A stretch of DNA of 64,000 bases. Origin: Anthocerotibacter panamensis C109 (GTDB taxonomy: Bacteria > Cyanobacteriota > Cyanobacteriia > Gloeobacterales > Anthocerotibacteraceae). Location of the stretch: positions 1,739,501-1,803,500 of the forward strand of contig NZ_CP062698.1 of assembly GCF_018389385.1 (NCBI RefSeq), in the 5' to 3' direction. How positions within the stretch are numbered: the stretch's first letter is position 1; each line of letters opens with the position of its first letter. A model generated the notes under the pieces. That model saw only the letters and a list, made by a program, of their open reading frames with translations, ran no database searches and was not told where the DNA came from. Below, piece after piece: positions 4,976 to 60,527 of the stretch. Position numbers and translations under genes: made by a program.

Positions 4976-5710
4976 TTACGCGCGCTTACCCCGGTCCAGG
5001 ATCAGTTTGACCGCGATCGGGATGAGGAAAGCCCCCAAAGTCAGGATAATCGAGACTCCCTTAGGCACCTCCAGCCCCCAAAAGCCCGCCAGGAGCTTGA
5101 GTCCCACCAATCCGACCACGAGATAAGCAATCTCCTCCAAGGCCGGGAACCACTCGATCAAGCGGGTCAGGAGCATCGCCGAGATGCGCAGAGCAAGGAT
5201 GGCGAAGATGGAGGCCACCAGGATCAGCAAATATTTGTCGGTATAAGCGATAGCGACGAGGATCTGATCGATAGCAAAAGCGGCATCCGCCACTTCCACC
5301 GCAATCACCGTACTCCAAAACGTGCTGAGCCCCAGGAAGGTACGCGCCGGACCCTCAAAGTTTTCAGTAGATTCCCCCCCCTGTGTCCGTTTGAGAAAGT
5401 GGGCGGTGCACAGATAAACCAAGTACAGCCCTCCCAAGATCTTAGTTGCGGGGAATAACAGCAGCACCGCGGCAAAGACCACGGCCAAAAAGCGAAAGGC
5501 ATAGGCTCCAAACAAGCCATAAGTAAGAGCTTTGGCCCGCTGCTCGCGAGGAAGTTTGCGGGTCATTACCGCCAAAATAGCCGCGTTATCAAAACTCAAG
5601 ACCCCTTCGAGTAGCACTAGGGTCAGGACTAGGGGAATATCTAGAGGTGAGAAGTGGTAGGTCAGGATCTCATGCAAGACCTCCCATGCACTCTGCCACA
5701 CATAGTCCAT
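4976..5710 (-). CDS. terC: TerC family integral membrane protein
   Basis: A 244-residue polytopic membrane protein. Two acidic membrane motifs typical of TerC are seen: EGVLSFDNAAILAVM near residues 35-49 and EVADAAFAIDQILVAIA near 138-154. TerC/Alx-type proteins are linked to export or handling of manganese or calcium and, in photosynthetic membranes, to thylakoid protein insertion; which applies here is not visible. It is transcribed toward the metal ABC transporter genes, which fits metal homeostasis, but a separate palindromic operator lies between them. About 140 bp without a gene separates it from tRNA-Trp upstream. Confidence 0.9.
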   Translation of the reverse strand: MDYVWQSAWEVLHEILTYHFSPLDIPLVLTLVLLEGVLSFDNAAILAVMTRKLPREQRAKALTYGLFGAYAFRFLAVVFAAVLLLFPATKILGGLYLVYLCTAHFLKRTQGGESTENFEGPARTFLGLSTFWSTVIAVEVADAAFAIDQILVAIAYTDKYLLILVASIFAILALRISAMLLTRLIEWFPALEEIAYLVVGLVGLKLLAGFWGLEVPKGVSIILTLGAFLIPIAVKLILDRGKRA

Positions 5711-40267: not shown

Positions 40268-43200
40268 GTGAGTAATAAAAAACAGACTCCCCGACCCCTG
40301 GTGAGGCTCCTTTCGCGCGTTTCTAGAGTTCTAGCTTTGGCCGCAACGTTTAGCCTCAGTACCGCTGTCCGTGCCCAGACCTCCATAACAGCAGCACCCG
40401 ATGGAACAGGTACTCTGGTCAATGCCAGTGGTAACACCTTCACCATTACTGGGGGAACAACCTCCAGTAGCGGGACCAATCTGTTCCACAGCTTCGCGGA
40501 CTTTGGGCTGAACTCCAACCAGATTGCCAATTTTCAGGCTCTCAGCACCATTAGCAACATCCTGACTCGCGTGACTGGAGGCAATCCCTCGCTCATTGAC
40601 GGTCAAATCCGGGTAACAGGCAGCACCGCTAACCTGTTCTTCCTCAATCCGGCAGGCATCATCTTTGGGGCCAATGCCAATCTAGATGTAGCAGGTTCAT
40701 TTACCGTAAGCACAGCCAACGGTATTACTTTTGGGCAAAATTGGTTTAGTGCCATTGGTCCCAACGACTACGCTGCACTCAACGGTGCACCCCAGGCATT
40801 AGGATTTACAACCGCTCAACCTGGAGCGATTGTCAATGCAGGAAACTTAGCTGTTGGGCCGGGGAAGACCTTAGCCCTAATTGGTGGAACCGTAGTCAAT
40901 ACCGGACAACTCTTGACTCCCGGAGGGACGGTCACTGTGGCGGCGGTACCAGGGGAGAACTATGTCCGTCTAAGTACTGCGGGAAGCGTACTGAGCTATG
41001 ATCTCCCGCTAGCTGATGCCACCCAACCCAACCCCACGACACAGACTGCACTGTCTTTGTCAGAATTGCTGACCAGCCCTCTCGAAACGGGTTTGACCGT
41101 CCAGGGGAATGGCGCAGTAGCGCTGACGGGGACCACTATCCCGACGGATACCGGAACGACTATTGCTAGCGGTCACATCGACGTAACGAGCACAGCCGCC
41201 GAGGGTTTAGGCGGGACAGTCCAGGTTTTTGGTGAGAAGGTTGGTTTGGTCGGTGCCCAGATTGATGCCTCGGGCACAGCAGGCGGCGGGACAGTCCTGA
41301 TTGGCGGGGATTTCCAGGGTAGAGGGACCGTACCCAATGCAGCGCAGACCTATGTCAGTAGCGATTCTTTGATCCAGGCTAATGCTCTTACGCAGGGAGA
41401 TGGTGGAAGGGTAATCGTTTGGGCTGACAACACAACCCAGTTTTACGGCACTATTAATGCCAATGGTGGACGCCTATTCGGGGATGGCGGCTTTGTTGAG
41501 ACTTCTGGGAAAGAGTATTTGGAGGTTTTGGGAGGAGCGGTCAACGCTATTGCCTTTTCTGGAAGAGCTGGAAGTTGGCTGTTAGACCCGCGTGACGTCA
41601 CTATTCAAGATGCAGCAAGCGCTCGCGGTACTTTCACTGGTAGTAATCCTAGTATTTTCACCCCAACAGGAAACAATGCTATTGCTGATCGTAATACTAT
41701 TCAGACTTCTCTTAACAATGGTACGGATGTCACCGTAACTACAGGAACTACAGGCAGTCAACCGGGCAATATCACAGTCCAAAATACCATTACGAAGAGT
41801 TCAGGATCTAATGCTTTACTTACGTTAAATGCGGCTAACGATATCAATGTCAACGCCGATATAACTTCAACCAGCGGACAACTCAATGTAAACCTAGCTG
41901 CTGGCGGAAATATAAACTTTGCTGCCAATGCTGATATTATTACAAATGGGGGGGATCTCAGCACTAGCGGAGTTAATTTTGATAGCTCTAGCGGAACCAT
42001 TAACGCAGGATCTGGGACAGTTAGTTTAGGCCATACTGGAACCGTTAATCTAGGAAATTTGACCGTCGACAGTTTATCTATAACGGCTGGGGATAACATT
42101 ACTGATAGTGGTATCTTGAATGTAGCAGGCGTCACCACACTCAATACAGCAACGAACCGTGATATTACTCTGGATAGCACTACGAATAACTTGAATATTG
42201 TTAGTGTTGTAAATGCCAGGAATGTGAGCTTGGTAGACACCAATGCTATCAATTTAAGTGCTTCCAATATCTCAGGTAATCTGACAGTCACCGCAACAGG
42301 CATCACACAAAATGGCAGTTTAGTAGTAGGGAATGCCACGACCCTCAATGCAGGGATAGGTGATATCCTACTAAATACGAGCACCAACAATTTCAATGTT
42401 GTCAGCGTGACTAATGCTGGGAATGTGACGCTAGTGGATACCAATGCTATCAATCTAGGTACTTCTAACATCTCGGGTAATCTGACAGTCACGGCAACAG
42501 GCATCACACAAAGCGGCAGTTTAGTAGTAGGGAATGCCACGACCCTCAATGCAGGGGTGGGTAACATCACTTTGGGCACGAGCACCAACAATTTCAATAC
42601 CATCAGCGTGACTAATGCTGGGAATGTGACTCTAGTAGACACCAATGCTATCAATTTAAGTGCTTCCAATATCTCGGGTAATCTGAGTGTCAATGCGGCG
42701 GGAGGAAATATTACCGAAAGTGGAGCGTTACGTGTGACAGGCGATAGCTCCTTCACGGTAGCGAATGGAAATTCAATTATTCTTGATGCGAACAACAGCT
42801 TCAATGGGACGGTTGGCTTCAATAGTACAGGCACGATTCGGGATATTACGGTTAGGGATAGTGATGGGCTCAATCTGGCTGGTCTGAATATCTCGGGTAA
42901 TCTGACGGTTACCGCAACAGACATCACACAAAGTGGCAATTTAGTAGTAGGGAATGCCACGACCCTCAATGCAGGGGTGGGTAACATCACTCTGGGCACG
43001 AGCACCAACAACTTCAACACTGTCAGCGTGACTAATGCTGGGAATGTGACTCTAGTAGACACCAATGCTATCAATCTAGGCACTTCCAACATCTCGGGTA
43101 ATCTGAGTGTAAATGCGGCGGGGGGTATTACTGAGAGTGGACCCCTGAATATAACTGGCAACAGTACGTTCACGGTGGCGAATGGAAACTCAATTATTCT

Positions 43201-46200
43201 TGATGCGAATAACAACTTCAATGGGACGGTTGGCTTCAATAGTACAGGCACGATTCGGGATATTACGGTTAGGGATAGTGATGGGCTCAATCTGGCTGGT
43301 CTGAATATCTCGGGTAATCTGACGGTTACCGCAACAGACATCACACAAAGTGGCAGTTTAGTAGTAGGGAATGCCACGACTCTTAATGCAGGGACAGGGG
43401 ACATCACTCTGGGCACGAGCACCAACAATTTCAACACTGTCAGCGTGACTAATGCTGGGAATGTGAGCTTAGTAGACACCAATGCTATCAATCTAGGAAT
43501 TTCTAACATCTCGGGTGCTTTGAACGTTTCTGCGGGAGGAAATATCACCGAAAGTGGATCGGTGCAGGTGACAGGCGATAGCTCCTTCACGGTAGCGGAT
43601 AGAAACTCAATTATTCTTGATGCGAATAATAGTTTCAATGGTGCGGTCAGCTTTACTGCTAGTACTGGCAATATCAATAACTTGACGATAGTCGATAGTG
43701 ACGCACTTGACCTCGCCGTACTCAGAAACATCACAGGCAATCTGACAGTCACGGCAACAGGCATCACACAAAGTGGCAGTTTAGTAGTAGGGAATGCCAC
43801 GACCCTCAATGCAGGGGTGGGTAACATTACTCTGGGCACGAGCACCAACAATTTCAACACTGTCAGCGTGACTAATGCTGGGAATGTGACTCTAGTAGAC
43901 ACCAATGCTATCAATTTAAGTGCTTCCAATATCTCGGGTAATCTGACGGTTACCGCAACAGGCATCACACAAAGTGGCAGTTTAGTAGTAGGGAATGCCA
44001 CGACTCTTAATGCAGGAACGGGTGATATCCTACTGAACGCGAGCACCAACAATTTCAACACTGTCAGCGTGACTAATGCTGGGAATGTGAGCTTAGTAGA
44101 CACCAATGCTATCAATCTAGGAATTTCTAACATCTCGGGTGCTTTGAACGTTTCTGCGGGAGGAAATATCACCGAAAGTGGATCGGTGCAGGTGACAGGC
44201 GATAGCTCCTTCACGGTAGCGGATAGAAACTCAATTATTCTTGATGCGAATAATAGTTTCAATGGTGCGGTCAGCTTTACTGCTAGTACTGGCAATATCA
44301 ATAACTTGACGATAGTCGATAGTGACGCACTTGACCTCGCCGTACTCAGAAACATCACAGGCAATCTGACAGTCACGGCAACGGGCATCACACAAAGTGG
44401 CAGTTTAGTAGTAGGGAATGCCACGACTCTTAATGCAGGAACGGGTGATATCCTACTAAACACAAGCACCAACAATTTCAATGTTGTCAGCGTGACTAAT
44501 GCTGGGAATGTGACTCTAGTAGACACCAATGCTATCAATTTAAGTGCTTCCAATATCTCGGGTAATCTGAGTGTAAATGCGGCGGGGGGCATTACTGAGA
44601 GTGGAGCGTTACGTGTGACAGGCGATAGCTCCTTCATTGTAGCGAATGGAAATTCAATTATTCTTGATGCGAATAACAACTTCAATGGGACGGTTGGCTT
44701 CAATAGTACAGGCACGATTCGGGATATTACGGTTAGGGATAGTGATGGGCTCAATCTGGCTGGTCTGAATATCTCGGGTAATCTGACGGTTACCGCAACG
44801 GACATCACACAAAGTGGCAATTTAGTAGTAGGGAATGCCACGACCCTCAATGCAGGGGTGGGTAATATCCTACTGAACACAAGCACCAACAATTTCAACA
44901 CTGTCAGCGTGACTAATGCTGGGAATGTGACTCTAGTAGACACCAATGCTATCAATTTAAGTGCTTCCAATATCTCGGGTGCTTTGAACGTTTCTGCGGG
45001 AGGAAATATCACCGAAAGTGAATCGGTGCAGGTGACAGGCGATAGCTCCTTCACGGTAGCGGATAGAAACTCAATTATTCTTGATGCGAATAACAGCTTC
45101 AATGGGACGGTTGGCTTCAATAGTACAGGCACGATTCGGGATATTACGGTTAGGGATAGTGATGGGCTCAATCTGGCTGGTCTGAATATCTCGGGTAATC
45201 TGACAGTCACGGCAACGGACATCACACAAAGCGGCAGTTTAGTAGTAGGGAATGCCACGACCCTCAATGCAGGGATAGGTGATATCCTACTAAATACGAG
45301 CACCAACAATTTCAACACTGTCAGCGTGACTAATGCTGGGAATGTGACGCTGGTGGATACCAATGCTATCAATCTAGGAATTTCTAACGTCTCGGGTGCT
45401 TTGAACGTTTCTGCGGGAGGAAATATCACCGAAAGTGGATCGGTGCAGGTGACAGGCGATAGCTCCTTCACGGTGGGGGATGGAAATTCAATTATTCTTG
45501 ATGCGAATAACAACTTCAATGGGACGGTTGGCTTCAATAGTACAGGCACGATTCGGGATATTACGGTTAGGGATAGTGATGGGCTCAATCTGGCTGGTCT
45601 GAATATCTCGGGTAATCTGACAGTCACGGCAACAGACGTCACACAAAGCGGCAGTTTAGTAGTAGGAAATGCCACGACCCTCAATGCAGGGACAGGGGAC
45701 ATCACTCTGGGCACGAGCACCAACAATTTCAATGTTGTCAGCGTGACTAATGCTGGGAATGTGACTCTAGTAGACACCAATGCTATCAATTTAAGTGCTT
45801 CCAATATCTCGGGTAATCTGACAGTCACGGCAACAGACGTCACACAAAATGGCAGTTTAGTAGTAGGGAATGCCACGACCCTCAATGCAGGGGTGGGTAA
45901 CATCACTCTGGGCACGAGCACCAACAATTTCAATGTTGTCAGCGTGACTAATGCTGGGAATGTGAGCTTAGTAGACACCAATGCTATCAATCTAGGAATT
46001 TCTAACGTCTCGGGTAATCTGAGTGTAAATGCGGCGGGGGGTATTACTGAGAGTGGATCGGTGCAGGTGACAGGCGATAGCTCCTTCACGGTGGGGGATG
46101 GAAACTCAATTATTCTTGATGCGAATAACAGCTTCAACGGAACGGTTGGCTTCAATAGTACAGGCACGATTCGGGATATTACGGTTAGGGATAGTGATGG

Positions 46201-49200
46201 GCTCAATCTGGCTGGTCTGAATATCTCGGGTAATCTGACAGTCACGGCAACAGACATCACACAAAGCGGCAATTTAGTAGTAGGGAATGCCACGACCCTC
46301 AATGCAGGGGTGGGTAACATCACTCTGGGCACGAGCACCAACAATTTCAACACTGTCAGCGTGACTAATGCTGGGAATGTGAGCTTAGTAGACACCAATG
46401 CTATCAATCTAGGAATTTCTAACGTCTCGGGTGCTTTGAACGTTTCTGCGGGAGGAAATATCACCGAAAGTGGATCGGTGCAGGTGACAGGCGATAGCTC
46501 CTTCACGGTGGGGGATGGAAACTCAATTATTCTTGATGTGAATAACAGCTTCAATGGGACGGTTGGCTTCAATAGTATAGGCACGATTCGGGATATTACG
46601 GTTAGGGATAGTGATGGGCTCAATCTGGCTGGTCTGAATATCTCGGGTAATCTGACAGTCACGGCAACAGGCATCACACAAAATGGCAGTTTAGTAGTAG
46701 GGAATGCCACGACCCTCAATGCAGGGACAGGGGACATCACTCTGGGCACGAGCACCAACAATTTCAACGTTGTCAGCGTGACTAATGCTGGGAATGTGAC
46801 GCTGGTGGATACCAATGCTATCAATTTAAGTGCTTCCAATATCTCGGGTAATCTGACAGTCACGGCAACAGACGTCACACAAAGCGGCAGTTTAGTAGTA
46901 GGGAATGCCACGACCCTCAATACAGGGGTGGGTAACATCACTCTGGGCACGAGCACCAACAATTTCAATGTTGTCAGCGTGACTAATGCTGGGAATGTGA
47001 CTCTAGTAGACACCAATGCTATCAATCTAGGAATTTCTAACATCTCGGGTAATCTGACAGTCACGGCAACAGGCATCACACAAAGCGGCAGTTTAGTAGT
47101 AGGGAATGCCACGACTCTTAATGCAGGGACAGGGGACATCACTCTGGGCACGAGCACCAACAATTTCAACGCTGTCAGCGTGACTAATGCTGGGAATGTG
47201 ACTCTAGTAGACACCAATACTATCAATCTAGGCACTTCCAATATCTCGGGTAATCTGGGTGTAAATGCGGCGGGGGGTATTACTGAGAGTGGAGCGTTAC
47301 GTGTGACAGGCGATAGCTCCTTCACGGTGGGGGATGGAAACTCGATTATTCTTGATGCGAATAACAGCTTCAATGGGACGGTTGGCTTCAATAGTACAGG
47401 CACGATTCGGGATATTACGGTTAGGGATAGTGATGGGCTCAATCTGGCTGGTCTGAATATCTCGGGTAATCTGACGGTTACCGCAACAGGCATCACACAA
47501 AGCGGCAGTTTAGTAGTAGGGAATGCCACGACCCTCAATGCAGGGGTGGGTAACATCACTCTGGGCACGAGCACCAACAATTTCAACACTGTCAGCGTGA
47601 CTAATGCTGGGAATGTGACGCTGGTGGATACCAATGCTATCAATTTAAGTGCTTCCAATATCTCGGGTAATCTGACAGTCACGGCAACAGGCATCACACA
47701 AAGTGGCAGTTTAGTAGTAGGGAATGCCACGACCCTCAATGCAGGAACGGGTGATATCCTACTAAACACAAGCACCAACAATTTCAACGCTGTCAGTGTC
47801 GTGAATGCTGGGAATGTTACTCTAGTAGATACCAATACTATCAATTTAAGTGCTTCCAATATTTCGGGTAATCTGGGTGTAAATGCGGCGGGGGGCATTA
47901 CTGAGAGTGGACCCCTGAATATAACTGGCAACAGTACGTTCACGGTGGGGGATGGAGCCTCGATTATTCTTGATGCGAATAACAGCTTCAATGGTGCGGT
48001 CAGCTTCGGCAGTGCGGGGAGGATTCAGGACATCACGATAGTCGATAGCAATGCGCTTGACCTCACTCCCCTCAACATCACAGGCGACCTAAATGCTACA
48101 GCAGCAGGTATCACCGATAGTGGTTTGTTGCGTGTGGGCAATAATGCCAGGTTCAACACCGGCACTTCGGGAGGGGACATCACGCTCGATACCCTCTCTG
48201 TCAATGGCACTATTGCGCTGAATACAGGCAGCAATGCGACAATCGTCAATGCCAATGGGGTGAACCTCGCTGCTTCCAATGTTGGTGGAACCCTCTCAGC
48301 CACGGCAACTAATGGCAATATTCAGGATAGTGGGAATGTAGTAGTTGGAGGAAGCGCTAACTTCACTACTGTTGCTAGTGATGCTTCTATTGCACTGGAT
48401 TCCCTGAACATTGCTGGTCCCATTGCACTTAGCACAGGTAGCAATGCGACAATCGTCAATGCCAATGGGGTGAACCTCGCTGCTTCCAATGTTGGTGGCG
48501 TGCTCTCAGCCACAGCGACTAGTGGCAACATTACCGAAAGTGGAGCGTTACGTGTGACAGGCGATAGCTCCTTCACGGTGGGGGATGGAGCCTCGATTAT
48601 TCTTGATGCGAATAACAACTTCAATGGTGCGGTCAGCTTCGGCAGTGCGGGGAGGATTCAGGACATCACGATAGTCGATAGCAATGCGCTTGACCTCACT
48701 CCTCTCAACATCACAGGCGATCTAAATGCTACAGCAGCAGGTATCACCGATAGTGGTTTGTTGCGTGTGGGCAATAATGCCAGGTTCAACACCGGCATTT
48801 CGGGAGGGGACATCACGCTCGATACCCTCTCTGTCAATGGCACTATTGCGCTGAATACAGGCAGCAATGCGACAATTGTCAATGCCAATGGGGTGAACCT
48901 CGCTGCTTCCAATATCAGTGGAACCCTCTCAGCCACAGCAACTAATGGAAATATTACGCAAAGTGGTAATGTGACCGTAGGAAGTTCCAGCACATTCACA
49001 GCAGCGGGTGAAGCCTCGATTCTGTTAGGTAATGTCAATAATGCTTTTGGCGGCAGCATCAGCTTTGGTAGTACAGGCACGATTCAGGATATTACGATTG
49101 TCGATAGTGACGCACTCGACCTTGCGGGGTTAAATATCTCGGGCAACTTGAGTGCTACAGCAGCAGGTATCACCGATAGTGGTTTGTTGCGTGTGGGCAA

Positions 49201-52200
49201 TAATGCTAGGTTCAACGTCGGCATTTCGGGAGGGGACATCACGCTCGATACCCTCTCTGTCAATGGCACTATTGCGCTGAATACAGGCAGCAATGCGACA
49301 ATCGTCAATGCCAATGGGGTGAACCTCGCTGCTTCCAATATCGGTGGAGTGCTCTCAGCCACGGCAACTAATGGCAATATTCAGGATAGTGGGAATGTAG
49401 TAGTTGGAGGAAGCGCTAACTTCACTACTGTTGCTAATAACGCCTTCATTAACCTTGATTCCCTGAACATTGCTGGTCCCATTGCGCTTAACACAGGCAG
49501 CAATGCGACAATCGTCAATGCCAATGGGGTGAACCTCGCTGCTTCCAATGTTGGTGGCGTGCTCTCAGCCACGGCAACTAATGGCAATATTCAGGATAGT
49601 GGGAATGTAGTAGTTGGAGGGAGTGCTAACTTCACTACTGTTGCTAATAACGCCTTCATTAACCTTGACTCCCTGAACATTACTGGTCCTATTGCCTTAA
49701 GCACTGCAAATGGCGGAAATGCCACGGTTGTTAATACTAATATCAATGGCGTGAATCTCGCCACCTCTACTATTGGCGGGGCCCTAGATATCACGGCAAC
49801 CAATGGTAGCATTACGCAGAGTGGGTCAGCATGGGTGGCAGGTAATAGCTCCTTCACTGTGGCAGATAGAGCCTCAGTTCTACTCGGGGCGAACAATACT
49901 TTCGGTGGTAATGTCAGCTTCGGTAGTCTCGGAACACTCCTAGATCTTACTATCATTGATATTTCAGACCTGACCCTCACCACAGTGAATATTGCAGGCA
50001 ACCTTAGTGTTTTGACAACAGGAGGTAGTATTCAAGATGGCGGGATCGTTACGGTTGGGGGCAGTGCTAACTTTACTACTACAGCCAGCAACGCATCTAT
50101 CACGCTTGATACCCTGAATGTAGCAGGTGCTATCTCCTTAAATACAGTAGGTGCAGGCGGAAACGTCACTATTCTCAACTCTAATGCCAATGGGGTGAAC
50201 CTCGCTGCTTCCAATGTTGGTGGCGTGCTCTCAGCCACGGCGACTAGTGGTGATATTCAGGATAGTGGGAATGTAGTAGTTGGAGGAAGTGCTAACTTCA
50301 CTACTGTTGCTAGTGATGCTTCCATTGAACTAGATTCCCTGAACATTGCTGGTCCCATTGCACTTAACACAGGCAACAATGGGAATGCGACAATTGTCAA
50401 TGCCAATGGGGTGAACCTCGCTGCTTCTAATATCGGTGGAACCCTCTCAGCCACGGCAACTAATGGTGATATTCAGGATAGTGGGGATGTAGTAGTTGGA
50501 GGAAGTGCTAACTTCACTACTGTTGCTAGTGATGCTTCTATTACACTGGATTCATTAAACATTGCTGGTCCCATTGCGCTCAGCACAGGCAGTAATGCGA
50601 CAATCGTCAATGCCAATGGGGTGAACCTCGCTGCTTCCAATATCGGTGGAACCCTCTCAGCCACGGCAACTAGTGGCAACATTACCGAAAGTGGAGCGGT
50701 GCAGGTGACAGGCGATAGCTCCTTCACGGTGGGGGATGGAAACTCGATTATTCTTGATGCGAATAACAACTTCAATGGTGCGGTCAGCTTCGGCAGTGCG
50801 GGGAGGATTCAGGACATCACGATAGTCGATAGCAATGCGCTTGACCTCACTCCTCTCAACATCACAGGCGACCTAAATGCTACAGCAGCAGGTATCACCG
50901 ATAGTGGTTTGTTGCGTGTGGGCAATAATGCTAGGTTCAACGTCGGCATTTCGGGAGGGGACATCACGCTCGATACCCTCTCTGTCAATGGCACTATTGC
51001 GCTGAATACAGGCAGCAATGCGACAATCGTCAATGCCAATGGGGTGAACCTCGCTGCTTCCAATATCAGTGGAACCCTCTCAGCCACAGCAACTAATGGC
51101 AATATTCAGGATAGTGGGAATGTAGTAGTTGGAGGAAGCGCTAACTTCACTACTGTTGCTAGTGATGCTTCTATTGCACTGGATTCCCTGAACATTGCTG
51201 GTCCCATTGCACTTAGCACGAGCAGTAATGCGACAATTGTCAATGCCAATGGGGTGAACCTCGCTGCTTCCAATATCGGTGGAACCCTCTCAGCCACAGC
51301 GACTAGTGGCAACATTACCGAAAGTGGAGCGTTACGTGTGACAGGCGATAGCTCCTTCACGGTGGGGGATGGAAACTCGATTATTCTTGATGCGAATAAC
51401 AACTTCAATGGTGCGGTCAGCTTCGGCAGTGCGGGGAGGATTCAGGACATCACGATAGTCGATAGCAATGCGCTTGACCTCACTCCTCTCAACATCACAG
51501 GCGACCTAAATGCTACAGCAGCAGGTATCACCGATAGTGGTTTGTTGCGTGTGGGCAATAATGCCAGGTTCAACACCGGCACTTCGGGAGGGGGCATCAC
51601 GCTCGATACCCTCTCTGTCAATGGCACTATTGCGCTGAATACAGGCAGCAATGCGACAATCGTCAATGCCAATGGAGTGAACCTCGCTGCTTCCAATATC
51701 AGTGGAACCCTCTCAGCCACAGCAACTAATGGCAATATTCAGGATAGTGGGAATGTAGTAGTTGGAGGAAGTGCTAACTTCACTACTGTTGCTAGTGATG
51801 CTTCTATTGCACTGGATTCCCTGAACATTGCTGGTCCCATTGCACTTAGCACAGGCAGTAATGCGACAATCGTCAATGCCAATGGGGTGAACCTCGCTGC
51901 TTCCAATATCGGTGGAACCCTCTCAGCCACAGCGACTAGTGGCAACATTACCGAAAGTGGAGCGTTACGTGTGACAGGCGATAGCTCCTTCACGGTGGGG
52001 GATGGAAACTCGATTATTCTTGATGCGAATAACAACTTCAATGGTGCGGTCAGCTTCGGCAGTGCGGGGAGGATTCAGGACATCACGATAGTCGATAGCA
52101 ATGCGCTTGACCTCACTCCTCTCAACATCACAGGCGACCTAAATGCTACAGCAGCAGGTATCACCGATAGTGGTTTGTTGCGTGTGGGCAATAATGCCAG

Positions 52201-55200
52201 GTTCAACACCGGCACTTCGGGAGGGGACATCACGCTCGATACCCTCTCTGTCAATGGCACTATTGCGCTGAATACAGGCAGCAATGCGACAATCGTCAAT
52301 GCCAATGGGGTGAACCTCGCTGCTTCCAATATCGGTGGAGTGCTCTCAGCCACGGCAACTAATGGCAATATTCAGGATAGTGGGAATGTAGTAGTTGGAG
52401 GAAGCGCTAACTTCACTACTGTTGCTAATAACGCCTTCATTAACCTTGATTCCCTGAACATTGCTGGTCCCATTGCACTTAGCACAGGCAGTAATGCGAC
52501 AATCGTCAATGCCAATGGGGTGAACCTCGCTGCTTCCAATATCGGTGGAACCCTCTCAGCCACAGCGACTAGTGGCAACATTACCGAAAGTGGAGCGTTA
52601 CGTGTGACAGGCGATAGCTCCTTCACGGTGGGGGATGGAAACTCGATTATTCTTGATGCGAATAACAACTTCAATGGTGCGGTCAGCTTCGGCAGTGCGG
52701 GGAGGATTCAGGACATCACGATAGTCGATAGCAATGCGCTTGACCTCACTCCTCTCAACATCACAGGCGACCTAAATGCTACAGCAGCAGGTATCACCGA
52801 TAGTGGTTTGTTGCGTGTGGGCAATAATGCCAGGTTCAACACCGGCACTTCGGGAGGGGGCATCACGCTCGATACCCTCTCTGTCAATGGCACTATTACG
52901 CTGAATACAGACAGCAATGCGACAATCGTCAATGCCAATGGGGTGAACCTCGCTGCTTCCAATATCAGTGGAACCCTCTCAGCCACGGCAACTAATGGCA
53001 ATATTCAGGATAGTGGGAATGTAGTAGTTGGAGGAAGTGCTAACTTCACTACTGTTGCTAGTGATGCTTCTATTGCACTGGATTCCCTGAACATTACTGG
53101 TCCCATTGCACTTAACACAGGCAGTAATGCGACAATCGTCAATGTCAATGGGGTGAACCTCGCTGCTTCCAATATCGGTGGAACCCTCTCAGCCACAGCG
53201 ACTAGTGGCAACATTACCGAAAGTGGAGCGGTGCAGGTGACAGGCGATAGCTCCTTCACGGTGGGGGATGGAAACTCGATTATTCTTGATGCGAATAACA
53301 ACTTCAATGGTGCGGTCAGCTTCGGCAGTGCGGGGAGGATTCAGGACATCACGATTATTGACACATTAGCACTGAATCTCACCGCTTTGGACATCACAGG
53401 CGATCTAAATGCTACAGCAGCAGGTATCACCGATAGTGGTTTGTTGCGTGTGGGCAATAATGCCAGGTTCAACACCGGCACTTCGGGAGGGGACATCACG
53501 CTCGATACCCTCTCTGTCAATGGCACTATTACGCTGAATACAGACAGCAATGCGACAATCGTCAATGCCAATGGGGTGAACCTCGCTGCTTCCAATATCA
53601 GTGGAACCCTCTCAGCCACGGCAACTAATGGTGATATTCAGGATAGTGGGGATGTAGTAGTTGGAGGAAGTGCTAACTTCACTACTGTTGCTAATAACAC
53701 CTTCATTAACCTTGATTCTCTGAATGTTACTGGTCCCATTGCACTTAGCACAGGTAGTAATGGGAATGCGACAATCGTCAATGCCAATGGGGTGAACCTC
53801 GCTGCTTCTAATATCGGTGGCGTGCTCTCAGCCACAGCAACTAATGGCAATATTCAGGACAGTGGGAATGTAGTAGTTGGAGGAAGTGCTAACTTCACTA
53901 CTGCTGCTAGCGATGCTTCCATTGAACTGGATTCCCTGAACATTGCTGGTCCCATTGCACTTAACACAGGCAACAATGGGAATGCGACAATTGTCAATGC
54001 CAATGGGGTGAACCTTACTGCTTCCAATGTTGGTGGGGTGCTCTCAGCCACAGCAACTAATGGTGATATTCAGGATAGTGGGAATGTAGTAGTTGGAGGA
54101 AGTGCTAACTTCACTACTGTTGCTAGTGATGCTTCTATTGCACTGAATTCCCTGAATGTTGCTGGTCCCATTACGCTTAACACAGGCAGCAATGCGACAA
54201 TCGTCAATGTCAATGGGGTGAACCTCGCTGCTTCCAATGTTGGTGGCGTGCTCTCAGCCACGGCGACTAGTGGTGATATTCAGGATAGTGGGAATGTAGT
54301 AGTTGGAGGAAGTGCTAACTTCACTACTGTTGCTAGTGATGCTTCCATTGAACTAGATTCCCTGAACATTGCTGGTCCCATTGCACTTAACACAGGCAAC
54401 AATGGGAATGCGACAATTGTCAATGCCAATGGGGTGAACCTTGCTGCTTCTAATATCGGTGGGGTGCTCTCAGCCACAGCGACTAGTGGCAACATCACCG
54501 AAAGTGGAGCGGTGCAGGTGACGGGCGATAGCTCCTTCACCGTAGCGAATGGGGCCTCGATTCTGTTGGATAATGCCAACAATACGTTTGGCGGTACTGT
54601 CAACTTTGCCAGTACAGGCACCCTTCGGGACATCACAATTGCTGACACCACTGCACTGAACCTTCAGGCACTCCGGCTGACGGGTGACCTTGACGTAGCT
54701 GCCGCGGGGATTACCAGCAGTGGAGCACTCGTTGTTGGTGGAACAACGACTCTGGCGGCGGGGGGTAACAATATCACCTTGAGCAACAGTAACAACAACT
54801 TCAGCACCGTGAGCGTAACCAGTGGTCGAGATGTGACGCTGGCAGACCTTGATTCCCTTGACCTTGGAGCCTCTAATCTCACAGGGAATCTGAGCCTGAC
54901 TGCTGCCGGGATTACAGATAGTGGGGCGCTCGTTGTCGGTGGAACAGCGACCCTGGCGGCGGGGAATAACGACATCACCTTAGACCAGGGAGAAAACAAC
55001 TTTAATACGGTGAGTGTGGTCAGTGGTCGAAACGTGACTCTAGTCGATGCTGATGCCCTCAACCTCGGAACCTTCAATGTCGCGAATAACCTGACCCTCC
55101 AGGCTGGAGGAGCCGTGACCCAGACCGGAGGAATCACTGCCACTGGACTAGCGTTGTTAGGAGATGGATCCTACACTTTGACGCGCAGCGATAACGATGT

Positions 55201-57115
55201 GAATACCCTCGTAGCTCAGACCGTAGGCGGCATTAGTTTTCGGGATGTAGACGATCTTTTGGTTGACACTATCAATGGGACTGCTGGTATCCAAACTGAG
55301 GGCGGTACTGTCAACCTACAGGCTGGGACCAGACTCGTGCTCAATAGTTTGGTACGTACCAGCGGTGGCGACCTGACGCTGACAGCGGGAGGCACCATTA
55401 CAAGGGGGACCGCCAGCACAGCAGGGAACCTGCTCACCTTTGCAGACGGCAATGGCGGCAACGTCACCCTGAATGCGCCCAATAGTATTGACCTCAACTT
55501 CATAAACGCCCAGAGTGCCAATGGTTTGGGGGGTAACGTAGACATTACCACCACAGGTTTCTTCCAGGCTCTGGGGACGTTCAGTAACCGCAACAATATC
55601 CAAACCAGCATTTCCACCCTCGGCTTGAGCGGAGGGGGGGCTGTAATCATCCGCTATGGTAGCGGACTTGAACGGGGTCTACCCTTCTCTGTGGGGGATG
55701 CCACCGTTAATGGGACCGCAGGAGCTATCACCGCCGACGAGATCAGTTCAGTTATCAACCCACAGGGGGTAGCCCTGGTTTTTGAGGGGAGCTATACACT
55801 CGGCAGAATCCAGTTCATCACGCCAAATATTTGCTTGACCAACTGTGTCAGGACCGTGACGGTATCCACCCAAGTCCCCGAAGCCGCGCCGGTGAGCTCG
55901 GTCCTGACCCCGACCGCCGAGTCCATCGATACCGATTTCACGGAAGACTTCCAGCGCTACTTGGGCCGTTCTCTGCCCACTCAGGAACCTCTCTCGCAGA
56001 CGCTCCTAGGCCAGCTTGCTCGTGTTACGGGCAAAAAGCCCGCTGTCTTGCGCGTGCGGTCCCTGAGCAACGAAGTGCGCCTAGTACTGGTCACCGCCGA
56101 GGGCACTGAGATTTCCCAAACGGTGCCTGAGGCCAACCGCCGCGACTTGCTGCGCGTAGTCAAGGAATTCCGCGACGCGATCACTGCCCCCGATGAACGC
56201 AATTCCACCGCTTATCTCAAACCCGCTCAGCAGATTTACGACTGGCTGATCCGTCCTGTGGAGTCCGTCCTCAAAGACCGGAGTGTGGATACCCTGCTCC
56301 TCAGTCTGGATACGGGGTTGCGCCAGTTGCCTATCGCGGCGCTACACGATGGCAAACAGTTCCTAGTGGAGAAATACAGTCTAGCGCTCATCCCCAGTGC
56401 CAACCTCGTGGACAGCGCCTATGGAGATGTGCGCAAGTCGCAGATCCTAGCTATGGGCGCGTCCCGCTTCAATGACCCAGACTTCGCGAATGACCCACTC
56501 CCCGGCGCTGCACTAGAGCTGAAAAAAGCCCAGCAAAGCCTTCCGGGTGGAGCGGAATTCCTCAACCAGGATTTCACCAGCACGAACCTGCGCGTCCAAC
56601 GCGAGCAAAAATCCTTTGGCGTTATTCACCTAGCGACCCATGCAGACTTCCAGCCTGGAGAACCCAATGCCTCCTATGTACTCTTCTCTGATGGTCGCTT
56701 GGGCTTGGATGACCTACGCAAACTCCGCCTCGACGACCCGCCTGTGGAGTTGTTGGTTCTCAGTGCCTGTCGGACCGCATTAGGCGATGAGCAGGCTGAA
56801 CTAGGCTTTGCAGGCGTGGCGGTGGCGACGGGGGTCAAGACCGCGCTTGCCAGCCTCTGGTACGCCAGTGATAAGGGGACGCTGGGGATGATGACGGCTT
56901 TCTACGACCAACTCACAACCGCTCCCATCAAGGCAGAAGCCCTCCGTCAAGCCCAAATTTCCATGCTCAAACGCCAAGTCCGTCTGGAGAAAGGGGTCCT
57001 GCGCTACGGCGAAAAATCTATCGCCCTGCCATCAGAATTGCAGGGCGCGGGCGTGTTGACCCTCGCACATCCTTATTACTGGTCGGGCTTTACGATGGTG
57101 GGCAGCCCTTGGTAA
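40268..57115 (+). CDS. Giant two-partner-secretion exoprotein with C-terminal CHAT protease
   Basis: A single uninterrupted 5615-residue reading frame starting at GTG. Order: signal peptide (cleavage after AVRA, about residue 36); TPS/haemagglutinin export domain (about 37-300, with FLNPAGIIFGANANLDVAGSF); a linker with SWLLDPRDVTI (about 437); beta-helix repeats from residue 668 to about 4940; a unique segment; and a CHAT domain (about 5300-5615). The CHAT catalytic pair is intact: HLATHADF (His5458) and LSACRTALGD (Cys5501). TpsB-type transporters export such proteins through the outer membrane. CHAT domains are caspase-like proteases. No membrane anchor and no CdiA-type VENN motif was seen. 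The repeat region is lower in GC than its flanks. The fibre with a protease at its end is inferred from the layout. Confidence 0.93.
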   Translation: MSNKKQTPRPLVRLLSRVSRVLALAATFSLSTAVRAQTSITAAPDGTGTLVNASGNTFTITGGTTSSSGTNLFHSFADFGLNSNQIANFQALSTISNILTRVTGGNPSLIDGQIRVTGSTANLFFLNPAGIIFGANANLDVAGSFTVSTANGITFGQNWFSAIGPNDYAALNGAPQALGFTTAQPGAIVNAGNLAVGPGKTLALIGGTVVNTGQLLTPGGTVTVAAVPGENYVRLSTAGSVLSYDLPLADATQPNPTTQTALSLSELLTSPLETGLTVQGNGAVALTGTTIPTDTGTTIASGHIDVTSTAAEGLGGTVQVFGEKVGLVGAQIDASGTAGGGTVLIGGDFQGRGTVPNAAQTYVSSDSLIQANALTQGDGGRVIVWADNTTQFYGTINANGGRLFGDGGFVETSGKEYLEVLGGAVNAIAFSGRAGSWLLDPRDVTIQDAASARGTFTGSNPSIFTPTGNNAIADRNTIQTSLNNGTDVTVTTGTTGSQPGNITVQNTITKSSGSNALLTLNAANDINVNADITSTSGQLNVNLAAGGNINFAANADIITNGGDLSTSGVNFDSSSGTINAGSGTVSLGHTGTVNLGNLTVDSLSITAGDNITDSGILNVAGVTTLNTATNRDITLDSTTNNLNIVSVVNARNVSLVDTNAINLSASNISGNLTVTATGITQNGSLVVGNATTLNAGIGDILLNTSTNNFNVVSVTNAGNVTLVDTNAINLGTSNISGNLTVTATGITQSGSLVVGNATTLNAGVGNITLGTSTNNFNTISVTNAGNVTLVDTNAINLSASNISGNLSVNAAGGNITESGALRVTGDSSFTVANGNSIILDANNSFNGTVGFNSTGTIRDITVRDSDGLNLAGLNISGNLTVTATDITQSGNLVVGNATTLNAGVGNITLGTSTNNFNTVSVTNAGNVTLVDTNAINLGTSNISGNLSVNAAGGITESGPLNITGNSTFTVANGNSIILDANNNFNGTVGFNSTGTIRDITVRDSDGLNLAGLNISGNLTVTATDITQSGSLVVGNATTLNAGTGDITLGTSTNNFNTVSVTNAGNVSLVDTNAINLGISNISGALNVSAGGNITESGSVQVTGDSSFTVADRNSIILDANNSFNGAVSFTASTGNINNLTIVDSDALDLAVLRNITGNLTVTATGITQSGSLVVGNATTLNAGVGNITLGTSTNNFNTVSVTNAGNVTLVDTNAINLSASNISGNLTVTATGITQSGSLVVGNATTLNAGTGDILLNASTNNFNTVSVTNAGNVSLVDTNAINLGISNISGALNVSAGGNITESGSVQVTGDSSFTVADRNSIILDANNSFNGAVSFTASTGNINNLTIVDSDALDLAVLRNITGNLTVTATGITQSGSLVVGNATTLNAGTGDILLNTSTNNFNVVSVTNAGNVTLVDTNAINLSASNISGNLSVNAAGGITESGALRVTGDSSFIVANGNSIILDANNNFNGTVGFNSTGTIRDITVRDSDGLNLAGLNISGNLTVTATDITQSGNLVVGNATTLNAGVGNILLNTSTNNFNTVSVTNAGNVTLVDTNAINLSASNISGALNVSAGGNITESESVQVTGDSSFTVADRNSIILDANNSFNGTVGFNSTGTIRDITVRDSDGLNLAGLNISGNLTVTATDITQSGSLVVGNATTLNAGIGDILLNTSTNNFNTVSVTNAGNVTLVDTNAINLGISNVSGALNVSAGGNITESGSVQVTGDSSFTVGDGNSIILDANNNFNGTVGFNSTGTIRDITVRDSDGLNLAGLNISGNLTVTATDVTQSGSLVVGNATTLNAGTGDITLGTSTNNFNVVSVTNAGNVTLVDTNAINLSASNISGNLTVTATDVTQNGSLVVGNATTLNAGVGNITLGTSTNNFNVVSVTNAGNVSLVDTNAINLGISNVSGNLSVNAAGGITESGSVQVTGDSSFTVGDGNSIILDANNSFNGTVGFNSTGTIRDITVRDSDGLNLAGLNISGNLTVTATDITQSGNLVVGNATTLNAGVGNITLGTSTNNFNTVSVTNAGNVSLVDTNAINLGISNVSGALNVSAGGNITESGSVQVTGDSSFTVGDGNSIILDVNNSFNGTVGFNSIGTIRDITVRDSDGLNLAGLNISGNLTVTATGITQNGSLVVGNATTLNAGTGDITLGTSTNNFNVVSVTNAGNVTLVDTNAINLSASNISGNLTVTATDVTQSGSLVVGNATTLNTGVGNITLGTSTNNFNVVSVTNAGNVTLVDTNAINLGISNISGNLTVTATGITQSGSLVVGNATTLNAGTGDITLGTSTNNFNAVSVTNAGNVTLVDTNTINLGTSNISGNLGVNAAGGITESGALRVTGDSSFTVGDGNSIILDANNSFNGTVGFNSTGTIRDITVRDSDGLNLAGLNISGNLTVTATGITQSGSLVVGNATTLNAGVGNITLGTSTNNFNTVSVTNAGNVTLVDTNAINLSASNISGNLTVTATGITQSGSLVVGNATTLNAGTGDILLNTSTNNFNAVSVVNAGNVTLVDTNTINLSASNISGNLGVNAAGGITESGPLNITGNSTFTVGDGASIILDANNSFNGAVSFGSAGRIQDITIVDSNALDLTPLNITGDLNATAAGITDSGLLRVGNNARFNTGTSGGDITLDTLSVNGTIALNTGSNATIVNANGVNLAASNVGGTLSATATNGNIQDSGNVVVGGSANFTTVASDASIALDSLNIAGPIALSTGSNATIVNANGVNLAASNVGGVLSATATSGNITESGALRVTGDSSFTVGDGASIILDANNNFNGAVSFGSAGRIQDITIVDSNALDLTPLNITGDLNATAAGITDSGLLRVGNNARFNTGISGGDITLDTLSVNGTIALNTGSNATIVNANGVNLAASNISGTLSATATNGNITQSGNVTVGSSSTFTAAGEASILLGNVNNAFGGSISFGSTGTIQDITIVDSDALDLAGLNISGNLSATAAGITDSGLLRVGNNARFNVGISGGDITLDTLSVNGTIALNTGSNATIVNANGVNLAASNIGGVLSATATNGNIQDSGNVVVGGSANFTTVANNAFINLDSLNIAGPIALNTGSNATIVNANGVNLAASNVGGVLSATATNGNIQDSGNVVVGGSANFTTVANNAFINLDSLNITGPIALSTANGGNATVVNTNINGVNLATSTIGGALDITATNGSITQSGSAWVAGNSSFTVADRASVLLGANNTFGGNVSFGSLGTLLDLTIIDISDLTLTTVNIAGNLSVLTTGGSIQDGGIVTVGGSANFTTTASNASITLDTLNVAGAISLNTVGAGGNVTILNSNANGVNLAASNVGGVLSATATSGDIQDSGNVVVGGSANFTTVASDASIELDSLNIAGPIALNTGNNGNATIVNANGVNLAASNIGGTLSATATNGDIQDSGDVVVGGSANFTTVASDASITLDSLNIAGPIALSTGSNATIVNANGVNLAASNIGGTLSATATSGNITESGAVQVTGDSSFTVGDGNSIILDANNNFNGAVSFGSAGRIQDITIVDSNALDLTPLNITGDLNATAAGITDSGLLRVGNNARFNVGISGGDITLDTLSVNGTIALNTGSNATIVNANGVNLAASNISGTLSATATNGNIQDSGNVVVGGSANFTTVASDASIALDSLNIAGPIALSTSSNATIVNANGVNLAASNIGGTLSATATSGNITESGALRVTGDSSFTVGDGNSIILDANNNFNGAVSFGSAGRIQDITIVDSNALDLTPLNITGDLNATAAGITDSGLLRVGNNARFNTGTSGGGITLDTLSVNGTIALNTGSNATIVNANGVNLAASNISGTLSATATNGNIQDSGNVVVGGSANFTTVASDASIALDSLNIAGPIALSTGSNATIVNANGVNLAASNIGGTLSATATSGNITESGALRVTGDSSFTVGDGNSIILDANNNFNGAVSFGSAGRIQDITIVDSNALDLTPLNITGDLNATAAGITDSGLLRVGNNARFNTGTSGGDITLDTLSVNGTIALNTGSNATIVNANGVNLAASNIGGVLSATATNGNIQDSGNVVVGGSANFTTVANNAFINLDSLNIAGPIALSTGSNATIVNANGVNLAASNIGGTLSATATSGNITESGALRVTGDSSFTVGDGNSIILDANNNFNGAVSFGSAGRIQDITIVDSNALDLTPLNITGDLNATAAGITDSGLLRVGNNARFNTGTSGGGITLDTLSVNGTITLNTDSNATIVNANGVNLAASNISGTLSATATNGNIQDSGNVVVGGSANFTTVASDASIALDSLNITGPIALNTGSNATIVNVNGVNLAASNIGGTLSATATSGNITESGAVQVTGDSSFTVGDGNSIILDANNNFNGAVSFGSAGRIQDITIIDTLALNLTALDITGDLNATAAGITDSGLLRVGNNARFNTGTSGGDITLDTLSVNGTITLNTDSNATIVNANGVNLAASNISGTLSATATNGDIQDSGDVVVGGSANFTTVANNTFINLDSLNVTGPIALSTGSNGNATIVNANGVNLAASNIGGVLSATATNGNIQDSGNVVVGGSANFTTAASDASIELDSLNIAGPIALNTGNNGNATIVNANGVNLTASNVGGVLSATATNGDIQDSGNVVVGGSANFTTVASDASIALNSLNVAGPITLNTGSNATIVNVNGVNLAASNVGGVLSATATSGDIQDSGNVVVGGSANFTTVASDASIELDSLNIAGPIALNTGNNGNATIVNANGVNLAASNIGGVLSATATSGNITESGAVQVTGDSSFTVANGASILLDNANNTFGGTVNFASTGTLRDITIADTTALNLQALRLTGDLDVAAAGITSSGALVVGGTTTLAAGGNNITLSNSNNNFSTVSVTSGRDVTLADLDSLDLGASNLTGNLSLTAAGITDSGALVVGGTATLAAGNNDITLDQGENNFNTVSVVSGRNVTLVDADALNLGTFNVANNLTLQAGGAVTQTGGITATGLALLGDGSYTLTRSDNDVNTLVAQTVGGISFRDVDDLLVDTINGTAGIQTEGGTVNLQAGTRLVLNSLVRTSGGDLTLTAGGTITRGTASTAGNLLTFADGNGGNVTLNAPNSIDLNFINAQSANGLGGNVDITTTGFFQALGTFSNRNNIQTSISTLGLSGGGAVIIRYGSGLERGLPFSVGDATVNGTAGAITADEISSVINPQGVALVFEGSYTLGRIQFITPNICLTNCVRTVTVSTQVPEAAPVSSVLTPTAESIDTDFTEDFQRYLGRSLPTQEPLSQTLLGQLARVTGKKPAVLRVRSLSNEVRLVLVTAEGTEISQTVPEANRRDLLRVVKEFRDAITAPDERNSTAYLKPAQQIYDWLIRPVESVLKDRSVDTLLLSLDTGLRQLPIAALHDGKQFLVEKYSLALIPSANLVDSAYGDVRKSQILAMGASRFNDPDFANDPLPGAALELKKAQQSLPGGAEFLNQDFTSTNLRVQREQKSFGVIHLATHADFQPGEPNASYVLFSDGRLGLDDLRKLRLDDPPVELLVLSACRTALGDEQAELGFAGVAVATGVKTALASLWYASDKGTLGMMTAFYDQLTTAPIKAEALRQAQISMLKRQVRLEKGVLRYGEKSIALPSELQGAGVLTLAHPYYWSGFTMVGSPW
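42269..48076 (+). repeat. First repeat block of the exoprotein (A/B units)
   Basis: About 28 in-frame tandem units of two kinds. A units are 67 residues (201 bp), running from ISGNLTVTATGITQSG to VDTNAINLGTSN; I count 17. B units are 72-74 residues (about 217 bp), containing GGITESG, VTGDSSF, SIILDANN and DSDGLNLAGLN; I count 11. Order mixes as AAB, AB and AAAB. DNA identity between copies is very high, with long exact matches, so recent amplification or gene conversion is likely. A diverged A-like unit (about 42070-42268) borders the block. Confidence 0.9.
48077..55090 (+). repeat. Second repeat block of the exoprotein (C/D/E units)
   Basis: Tandem units of about 68 residues (ITGDLNATAAGITDSG to GVNLAAS), about 70 residues (GGTLSATATNGNIQDSG to GVNLAAS) and about 73 residues (SGNITESG to DSNALDLTPLN). 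The three combine into a 211-residue higher-order unit. Diverged units occur near 49,800-50,150 and at the 3' border (54,660-55,090), where A-like units of higher GC appear, suggesting older edge copies around a homogenised interior. Confidence 0.88.
50473..53637 (+). repeat. 633-bp higher-order tandem repeat, about five copies
   Basis: The same three-unit block recurs with starts at 50473, 51106, 51739, 52372 and 53005, each exactly 633 bp (211 codons) apart, and a further unit start at 53638. A related 633-bp step is seen at 48025 to 48658. Copies differ by a few substitutions only. The multiple of three keeps the reading frame, so copy-number change would alter fibre length without breaking the protein. 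Confidence 0.9.
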
Positions 57116-59135: not shown

Positions 59136-60527
59136 CTACAGGTCCAGGTCAGTAATGCTGCGCTTTCTCACCCGTGCGACGTACTTGATGAGGATAAACG
59201 TTATGTTGTCGCCGCCCAATTCTCTAAGCGCCAAGTCAATCAGGGCCTGATCGTGGGCGCGGGGGTCCTGAGTGAGCAGTGGGAGGAGAGCCTGCTCCCA
59301 AAAGCGCTCGACCAAGGCCCCATCGCAGAAGCCGTCCGTACAGAGCAAGACCAGACAATCCTCGGGGAGCACAAAAGTCTGTACCGTGGGATGTAGGGCG
59401 TTGGGGGCCATGATTCCTAACGCCTGGGTGAGCGCTCCACTGTTGGGCATCCCCGCCACCGTGTTACTGGTGGTACGGGCCATACTGACTTCTAGATTAG
59501 CCACATCGTCATCCACCGTGAGTTGCTGGCAGTGCTGCCGGTCAATCAGGTAGACACGGCTGTCCCCGACATGGGCAACATGGAGCAAGGGGCCAATCAG
59601 ACAGCAGGCCACCAGGGTGGTCCCCATACGGCGGTAGTGCTGGCGACCCTGCTGGCGGTTCAGGTCGTAGATCGCTTGGTTAGCTTGGTACACGCTATCC
59701 GTCAGACTCCAGCGCATCTGACGAGCAGAGGGTGTCCCCTCGACGTAAAACAGTTGACTCAGCCGTTGTTCTAGGCTCTGAAGCGCAAGTTGACTGCCAA
59801 TTTCACCCCCATCGTGCCCGCCCATACCGTCGCAGACCAGAGCATAGCGCCCCTGAGGGTCATAGGTGAAGGTGTCCTCGTTGTTGGACCGCTTGCCGGG
59901 GTGGGTCGCGCCGACCACGACTTCGACCTTGCCTGGACCGTCTACTAGTGCTTCCAGGGCATCGAGTAAGTCTAGCGCTTGGGCAAGACGACCCTTTGCC
60001 AGATCCTCGACCACGGGCAGCAGGTTGGGAGGTAAAGCCCCAAGCCTGAGCCAGCACTGGCCTAACTGTTGGAGCGTGGGGCGGGCGGCATCTGGTTTTA
60101 GGTAAAAAAGACGGACCTGCCAGCCCAACACCCCGAGGTTGTCCAGATCCAGTAAGGAAGTAGCGACACTCTCCTGGATACAGGCATCCCAGAGTCGCCC
60201 AATTTGGATCAGCCAGCCCAAGCGCATCAGGGAGTCAGCCTTGGACCATGCGTGGGATAGGCGAGGCCAGGGCTCACCCGTTGGGGTCAGTGGCGCATCC
60301 TCCAATAAGAACCAGGTGCTATTGAGACAGGCATGGACCTGAGGGACCGCCCAGCGAAAGGCATTCAAACGTTGGTAGGGCCGACTCAGGGGCGGCATCT
60401 GAGCGTAGGGCGCCAATGCGGTACCGGGCTGCGTGTCCCGGACGACCAAGGGCATAGAACTCTGTACCTGGTAGCGTCCGTTGGGGAAGGGGGTTCTGGA
60501 GTCCGCCGTGGTTGCCAGATAGTACAT
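59136..60527 (-). CDS. PP2C-type Ser/Thr protein phosphatase
   Basis: A 463-residue protein. The C-terminal half (about 205-455) is a PPM/PP2C metal-dependent phosphatase with all main motifs: KRSNNEDTF, LVCDGMGGHDGGE, MGTTLVAC, VGDSRVYLI, TQALG, LLCTDGF and GGDNITFIL. The N-terminal 200 residues resemble the helical, kinase-remnant-like region found in cyanobacterial PP2C proteins (NGRYQVQSSMPLVVRDTQPG and LLEDAP). The usual N-terminal zinc ribbon was not seen. Its stop abuts the tpsB stop (convergent); the FHA gene is divergent. It could reverse phosphorylation by the CHASE2 kinase 20 kb away. Confidence 0.92.
   Translation of the reverse strand: MYYLATTADSRTPFPNGRYQVQSSMPLVVRDTQPGTALAPYAQMPPLSRPYQRLNAFRWAVPQVHACLNSTWFLLEDAPLTPTGEPWPRLSHAWSKADSLMRLGWLIQIGRLWDACIQESVATSLLDLDNLGVLGWQVRLFYLKPDAARPTLQQLGQCWLRLGALPPNLLPVVEDLAKGRLAQALDLLDALEALVDGPGKVEVVVGATHPGKRSNNEDTFTYDPQGRYALVCDGMGGHDGGEIGSQLALQSLEQRLSQLFYVEGTPSARQMRWSLTDSVYQANQAIYDLNRQQGRQHYRRMGTTLVACCLIGPLLHVAHVGDSRVYLIDRQHCQQLTVDDDVANLEVSMARTTSNTVAGMPNSGALTQALGIMAPNALHPTVQTFVLPEDCLVLLCTDGFCDGALVERFWEQALLPLLTQDPRAHDQALIDLALRELGGDNITFILIKYVARVRKRSITDLDL

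Follow-up and report, generated by a model that had tools for sequence, protein, structure and literature searches.

The genome of Anthocerotibacter panamensis C109 contains a very long open reading frame that joins a two-partner secretion (TPS) exoprotein to a CHAT domain, a putative protease of the caspase family. It lies in a stretch of 64,000 nucleotides that we call the window, and all positions given here are counted from the first letter of that stretch. The best-characterised CHAT-fold proteases, Csx29 and separase, act inside cells. The locus raises the question of where a CHAT domain on a predicted exported fibre is located and what it does there. A preliminary description, made from the DNA letters, had proposed that the cell uses a fibre of order 100 nm to display or deliver the protease at its end.

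The reading frame is uninterrupted, as had been described, and runs from 40268 to 57115. It begins with a GTG codon, has 5615 codons and a single stop with no internal stops; the two other forward frames have 406 and 408 stops over the same stretch. The source genome was assembled as one contig of 4.19 Mb. The single frame, the single contig, and a high-confidence structural model on both sides of the junction between helix, linker, and CHAT rule out a frameshift or separate genes as the source of this protein. The longest exact repeat within the gene is 412 bp, and the repeat copy number as assembled could be wrong. Antisense to the repeats is a TTG-started ORF of 2077 aa (41758-47991, minus strand) that is probably an artefact or echo of the repeats that gene callers may list. 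This reverse frame is open because the codons of the repeats are repetitive.

Pfam searches matched a TPS export domain, beta-helix repeats, and a CHAT domain in one protein (PF05860, PF18886, and PF12770; E 1e-43 for TPS and 7e-64 for CHAT), in agreement with the preliminary description, which had put forward such searches as a check. The N-terminus ahead of the TPS domain reads VLALAATFSLSTAVRAQ, which by inspection only we recognised as a signal peptide. With a TPS domain after this signal peptide and a cognate TpsB gene nearby, the protein is predicted to be exported as a TpsA protein. The DUF5649 repeat unit is about 67-70 aa and is in part doubled to 139 aa. No clear coil length for this protein emerged from autocorrelation of the repeat period. 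Strand spacing in the predicted structure gave about 22 residues per coil of beta-helix, at which some 5,000-5,100 solenoid residues would form a fibre of roughly 110 nm, and the length proposed earlier is reasonable on this basis.

Table 1. Features of the TPS-CHAT locus, with positions in the window
Feature	Residues	Position	Strand	Basis or remark
CHASE2 receptor with C-terminal Ser/Thr protein kinase, 767 aa		36626..38929	+	Pfam CHASE2 E 4e-56, Pkinase E 1e-44
Exported LysM + DUF928 protein, 420 aa		38991..40253	+	Pfam DUF928 E 5e-55, LysM E 2e-12
TPS-CHAT giant exoprotein gene		40268..57115	+	Open frame, 5615 aa, predicted mass 554 kDa
TPS secretion domain	46-245	40403..41002	+	Pfam PF05860, E 1e-43
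DUF5649 repeat region		42212..55216	+	Pfam PF18886 and tandem repeats; ~60 copies
Disordered linker, beta-helix to CHAT	5189-5211	55832..55900	+	pLDDT < 50 for exactly that stretch
CHAT protease domain (putative), as folded	5216-5615	55913..57112	+	AlphaFold2 model, pLDDT 91.3
CHAT Pfam core	5318-5613		+	PF12770, E 7e-64
Catalytic His5458 codon (predicted)		56639..56641	+	Invariant in 127/127 relatives
Catalytic Cys5501 codon (predicted)		56768..56770	+	Invariant in 126/126 aligned sequences, one gap
TpsB exporter, POTRA + ShlB/FhaC barrel, 616 aa		57285..59135	+	PF03865 E 5e-32, PF08479 E 5e-19
PP2C-type Ser/Thr phosphatase		59136..60527	-	PF13672 E 5e-17; convergent with operon

We modelled the C-terminal part of the protein with AlphaFold2 using 38 relatives. 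The model (mean pLDDT 91.3) contains the final beta-helix coils followed by a disordered stretch and then a compact domain that extends to the last residue. The best match of this domain among solved folds is the TPR-CHAT protein of Craspase (7y85; Z 28.1, 324 residues, 3.1 Å), with further matches to separase (5fby; Z 24.2), the anti-sigma factor DdvA (Z 19.4), and gingipains (Z 17-18). Single-sequence phmmer and profile searches of the PDB sequences with CHAT found no relative, so the link to Craspase and separase is by fold comparison only. The two catalytic residues that had been named, His5458 and Cys5501, are where the preliminary description placed them and are invariant in the aligned relatives. 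They are 43 residues apart, the same spacing as in the proven catalytic dyad of Csx29, H615/C658 (PMC10028731). The fold and the His-Cys dyad support the assignment of CHAT as a putative caspase-family protease. The confident model, nearest to Craspase TPR-CHAT and separase, is of the kind that the preliminary description had called for, and its claim of a TPS exoprotein joined to an intact protease domain is supported by the domains, the dyad, and the predicted fold. The C-terminal residue is Trp in 125 of 127 CHAT ORFs, with the terminal motif G-x-P-W.

The genes for the CHASE2-kinase, the LysM-DUF928 protein, the TPS-CHAT protein, and TpsB are arranged head to tail in one cluster, with the TpsB gene (ShlB + POTRA_2) starting 169 bases 3' of TPS-CHAT. 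The three partners of TPS-CHAT in this operon were absent from the preliminary description. The genome contains exactly one each of TPS, CHAT, TpsB, DUF928, and CHASE2, all within 22.5 kb at this locus, and with single-copy partners in one operon its function can be tested by clean deletions. The convergent PP2C phosphatase could possibly oppose the CHASE2 kinase. PP2C genes also adjoin TPS-CHAT genes at three loci from another cyanobacterial family (L047, L061, L062). On the 5' side of the operon (34067-36082, plus strand) is a gene for a PAS histidine kinase, the N-terminal 250 residues of which have no Pfam match.

The preliminary description had also suggested a survey of genomes for TPS plus CHAT fusions. 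At E 1e-20, 239 of 291 cyanobacterial genomes contain a match to the window's CHAT. Among 127 CHAT ORFs at 121 loci, which were picked by similarity to the window and do not give an unbiased share of all CHAT proteins, 95 also contain a TPS domain. These fusion counts are lower bounds, as our own TPS profile missed the TPS domains of the window and of locus L042, both of which Pfam detects; the window is counted and L042 is left out. Fusions occur in at least 17 cyanobacterial families. The idea that the fusion is unique to the window is ruled out: it is common in cyanobacteria, a point absent from the preliminary description. None of the 93 complete fusions is longer than the window's protein (5615 aa). 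The length of the solenoid is free to vary while both ends of the protein are constant, since the other complete fusions range from 803 to 3590 aa and the shortest has only about 180 residues between its TPS and CHAT domains. Identity of CHAT among the relatives is about 40-54% over the C-terminal 549 aa, and many relatives have proline-rich, variable linkers. Three loci (L049, L130, L134) have tandem pairs of TPS-CHAT genes, suggesting local duplication. The only same-family genome sampled (L174, G094:C43) has an in-frame TAG within the open frame of the CHAT gene. The best plasmid match, from Nostoc, is a stand-alone CHAT protein of 450 aa. The component families are all known. We found no description of a TPS plus CHAT fusion in the literature searched, which covers a minority of the subscription papers, and the combined module seems undescribed there.

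The window's gene order recurs in one other genome (G047, locus L038). Genome G083 probably has one such locus that was split by assembly: on one contig (L181), genes for a CHASE2-kinase and DUF928 precede a TPS domain that is cut off by the contig end, and on a second contig (L053), a CHAT ORF with TpsB behind it starts at the very end. CHASE2, DUF928, and TPS-CHAT follow one another in that order at L033, L037, L039, L123, and L125. Among the 121 loci we found CHASE2 nearby at 18, DUF928 at 16, and TpsB at 10. DUF928 and CHASE2 form a strong gene pair: CHASE2 is no more than 3 kb from DUF928 in 27 of 48 listed DUF928 genes, versus 0.5 expected under uniform placement. The CHASE2 protein beside DUF928 or TPS-CHAT carries a kinase in the window and at L038, L052, and L181, a TIR domain at L033, L123, and L187, and a CHAT domain at L037, L039, L125, L147, L184, and L192. 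Other CHASE2 outputs are a guanylate cyclase (L085), an AAA domain (L179), and GGDEF-EAL (L066). At L192 (7223-15958) genes for CHASE2-CHAT, DUF928, TPS, and a signal-peptide TPR-CHAT protein follow in that order as separate genes, and L184 (9579-19000) contains the same four separate genes. In three genomes of the window's taxonomic order, DUF928 adjoins a signal-peptide TPR-CHAT gene, and a search of these genomes for the TPS domain found none. Because split modules (L184, L192) and TPR-CHAT modules that lack TPS both exist, DUF928 appears to have an exported CHAT as its partner, whether this is on a TPS or a TPR scaffold.

We propose a fold and a partner for DUF928, a cyanobacterial family of unknown function that 94 of 116 sampled cyanobacterial genomes encode. 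The model (pLDDT 88) consists of an Ig/Fn3-like sandwich and a helical repeat, with the C-terminal domain of MtxA (4z29) as its best fold match (Z 9.2, 151 of 169 residues, 12% identity). A profile search of the PDB sequences with DUF928 returned chance matches only, so the link to MtxA is one of fold, by which homology is suggested. In Magnetospirillum the MtxA gene is followed by the gene for a CHASE2 cyclase (PMC4439547), and in Burkholderia a LysM-FecR protein and a CHASE2 kinase are part of a biofilm-regulating operon (PMC5192318). Because the MtxA and LysM-FecR genes both go with CHASE2 genes, the comparison supports DUF928 as a putative envelope-side accessory of the CHASE2 receptor, plausibly with a role in adhesion or biofilm control.

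The whole 5615-residue protein has only three cysteines: Cys5501 and a CxxxC pair (Cys5189/Cys5193) with which the linker begins where the beta-helix ends, about 420 residues before the C-terminus. The linkers of the 95 fusions fall into two classes, 76 that lack Cys and 19 that contain exactly two; none has one or three. A Poisson distribution with the same mean expects 25 of 95 linkers with one Cys, although this comparison overstates the independence of relatives that share ancestry. The catalytic Cys is the only one in the CHAT domain of 88 of the 95 fusions, and six cytoplasmic CHASE2-fused CHAT domains have 3-7. Because the linker has zero or two Cys and CHAT mostly has the catalytic one only, the pattern suggests an oxidising compartment. 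Judged from these sequences, a large cyanobacterial family would set CHAT, with an invariant dyad and almost no other Cys, on an exported adhesin-type protein. The TpsA proteins HMW1 and HxuA are locked in the TpsB pore by a disulfide loop at their C-terminus, which leaves the tail in the periplasm; the adhesin CdrA is released when the protease LapG cuts its periplasmic tail (PMC5422565).

We tentatively favour, at somewhat less than an even chance, the reading that the operon is an envelope adhesion-and-sensing module in which a surface fibre is governed in its release, or in the signalling that it starts, by a periplasmic CHAT. TpsB would thread the TPS domain and about 5,000 solenoid residues through to the cell surface, where they would form a fibre of about 110 nm, and a disulfide-closed linker together with the compact CHAT domain would keep the C-terminus in the periplasm. 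There CHAT, as a cysteine protease, would cut a periplasmic target. This target may be the linker itself, resulting in release of the fibre, or an operon partner, resulting in a signal. The LysM-DUF928 protein, presumably bound to peptidoglycan, and the CHASE2 receptor would sense the state of the envelope or surface, control or read the cleavage by CHAT, and relay it via the cytoplasmic kinase with PP2C opposing. The tools used here provided the domains, the invariant dyad, the fold, the operon, the conservation, the Cys pattern, and the interchange with exported TPR-CHAT; to these we add, by inference, proteolysis, the periplasmic location, the substrate, and the direction of signalling. Against a mechanism that involves the whole operon, most of the 121 loci have neither CHASE2 nor DUF928 as a neighbour, and against the CHASE2 link, CHASE2 in cyanobacteria is fused to many outputs anyway. 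A CHAT that governs fibre release would make the protein a self-contained counterpart to the switch formed by LapG and CdrA, and one that signals inwards would connect surface contact to TIR, CHAT, or kinase effectors.

The display of the protease at the fibre end, as proposed in the preliminary description, would require that the whole protein is exported and that CHAT is accessible at the distal end or close to it, where it would cut proteins of the matrix, prey, or neighbours. The catalytic dyad and fold are intact, the proline-rich and variable linkers of many relatives suit a tethered domain, and the zero-or-two pattern of linker Cys fits the cell surface equally well as the periplasm. 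TPS systems can handle such cargo: Pseudomonas aeruginosa exports the protease LepA by this route, and the globular C-terminal domain of CdiA toxins can be exported. Gingipains, which are among the fold matches of CHAT, are secreted caspase-fold proteases that act outside cells. Nevertheless, we judge a position of CHAT immediately beneath the outer membrane to be more likely than one at the fibre tip, because the linker Cys pair recalls the disulfide plug of HMW1 and HxuA and because in sister modules CHAT is on a TPR protein of its own, which has a signal peptide but lacks a TPS domain and would not be expected to be exported by TpsB. The operon partners are also periplasmic or inner-membrane sensors. 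The plug itself cannot be general, given that the Cys pair is missing in 76 of 95 relatives, and the loop that CxxxC can form is small for such a role. Overall, we consider display at the tip unlikely, but worth keeping in view. A related idea, that CHAT is a folded plug for retention or assembly with its protease activity incidental or lost, would explain the strict conservation of the C-terminal fold and of the last Trp, found in 125 of 127 proteins. We think this improbable, as the His-Cys dyad does not vary among the aligned relatives, which is hard to explain if CHAT does not catalyse.

CHAT in the periplasm could also be part of an outside-in switch for conflict or cell death, in which an invader that engages the fibre would activate CHAT, and the signal would pass from CHAT through the CHASE2 receptor to a cytoplasmic effector. 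The CHASE2 outputs in these neighbourhoods are kinase, TIR, CHAT, cyclase, or AAA domains, and conflict systems typically use TIR and caspase-like domains as effectors (PMC8195603). By contrast, kinase and second-messenger outputs are those of ordinary signalling, and CHASE2 is promiscuous in general. We regard such a switch as doubtful, and are marginally more doubtful of its extended form, a widespread cyanobacterial switch for immunity or cell death in which the fibre's periplasmic CHAT is wired via DUF928 to CHASE2 with swappable effectors. Delivery of the C-terminal CHAT into neighbouring cells as a CdiA-like contact-dependent toxin seems very improbable. CHAT does occupy the C-terminal position that such a toxin would have in a TpsA protein, but the protein has none of the VENN, ELYN, or QEKN motifs and we found no immunity-like gene between CHAT and TpsB, which is the next gene. 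The preliminary description had already noted the lack of a VENN motif and an immunity gene, and both absences were confirmed. CHAT is also present in one copy and is conserved across families rather than polymorphic, which disfavours the neighbour attack that had been left open.

Like CdiA and CdiB, the module consists of a TpsA protein with a putatively functional C-terminal domain and a TpsB protein, but it has no VENN motif or immunity protein and its C-terminal domain is not polymorphic. MtxA with the CHASE2 cyclase and LysM-FecR with the CHASE2 kinase of the BiofilmReg operon have, as here, an exported accessory beside CHASE2; a TPS protein and CHAT are not reported from these Magnetospirillum and Burkholderia systems. 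The exported TPR-CHAT proteins beside DUF928 (L176-L179, L184, L192) share the signal peptide, C-terminal CHAT, and DUF928 neighbour but have a TPR scaffold instead of a TPS solenoid, and at L184 and L192 their gene is separate from that of the TPS protein. Craspase TPR-CHAT (Csx29) and separase have the same CHAT fold (Z 28 and 24), with a His-Cys spacing in Csx29 identical to that in the window. These two proteins act intracellularly on helical-repeat scaffolds under the control of gRAMP-bound RNA or securin, whereas the window's CHAT is on a TPS beta-solenoid that is predicted to be exported. Pfam found no TPR match in the TPS-CHAT protein, and the genes beside it encode the CHASE2-kinase, DUF928, TpsB, and PP2C, with no gRAMP/Cas7-11 gene among them. 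HMW1, HxuA, and CdrA resemble the window's protein in the TPS domain, the beta-helix, and the adjacent TpsB, and HMW1 and HxuA also in the Cys pair near the end of the helix. Their tail is only an anchor or a cleavable tail, whereas that of the window is a 400-residue domain with the predicted fold of a caspase-family protease. CdrA is cut by a separate periplasmic protease, LapG, while in the window the putative protease domain is carried on the exoprotein itself.
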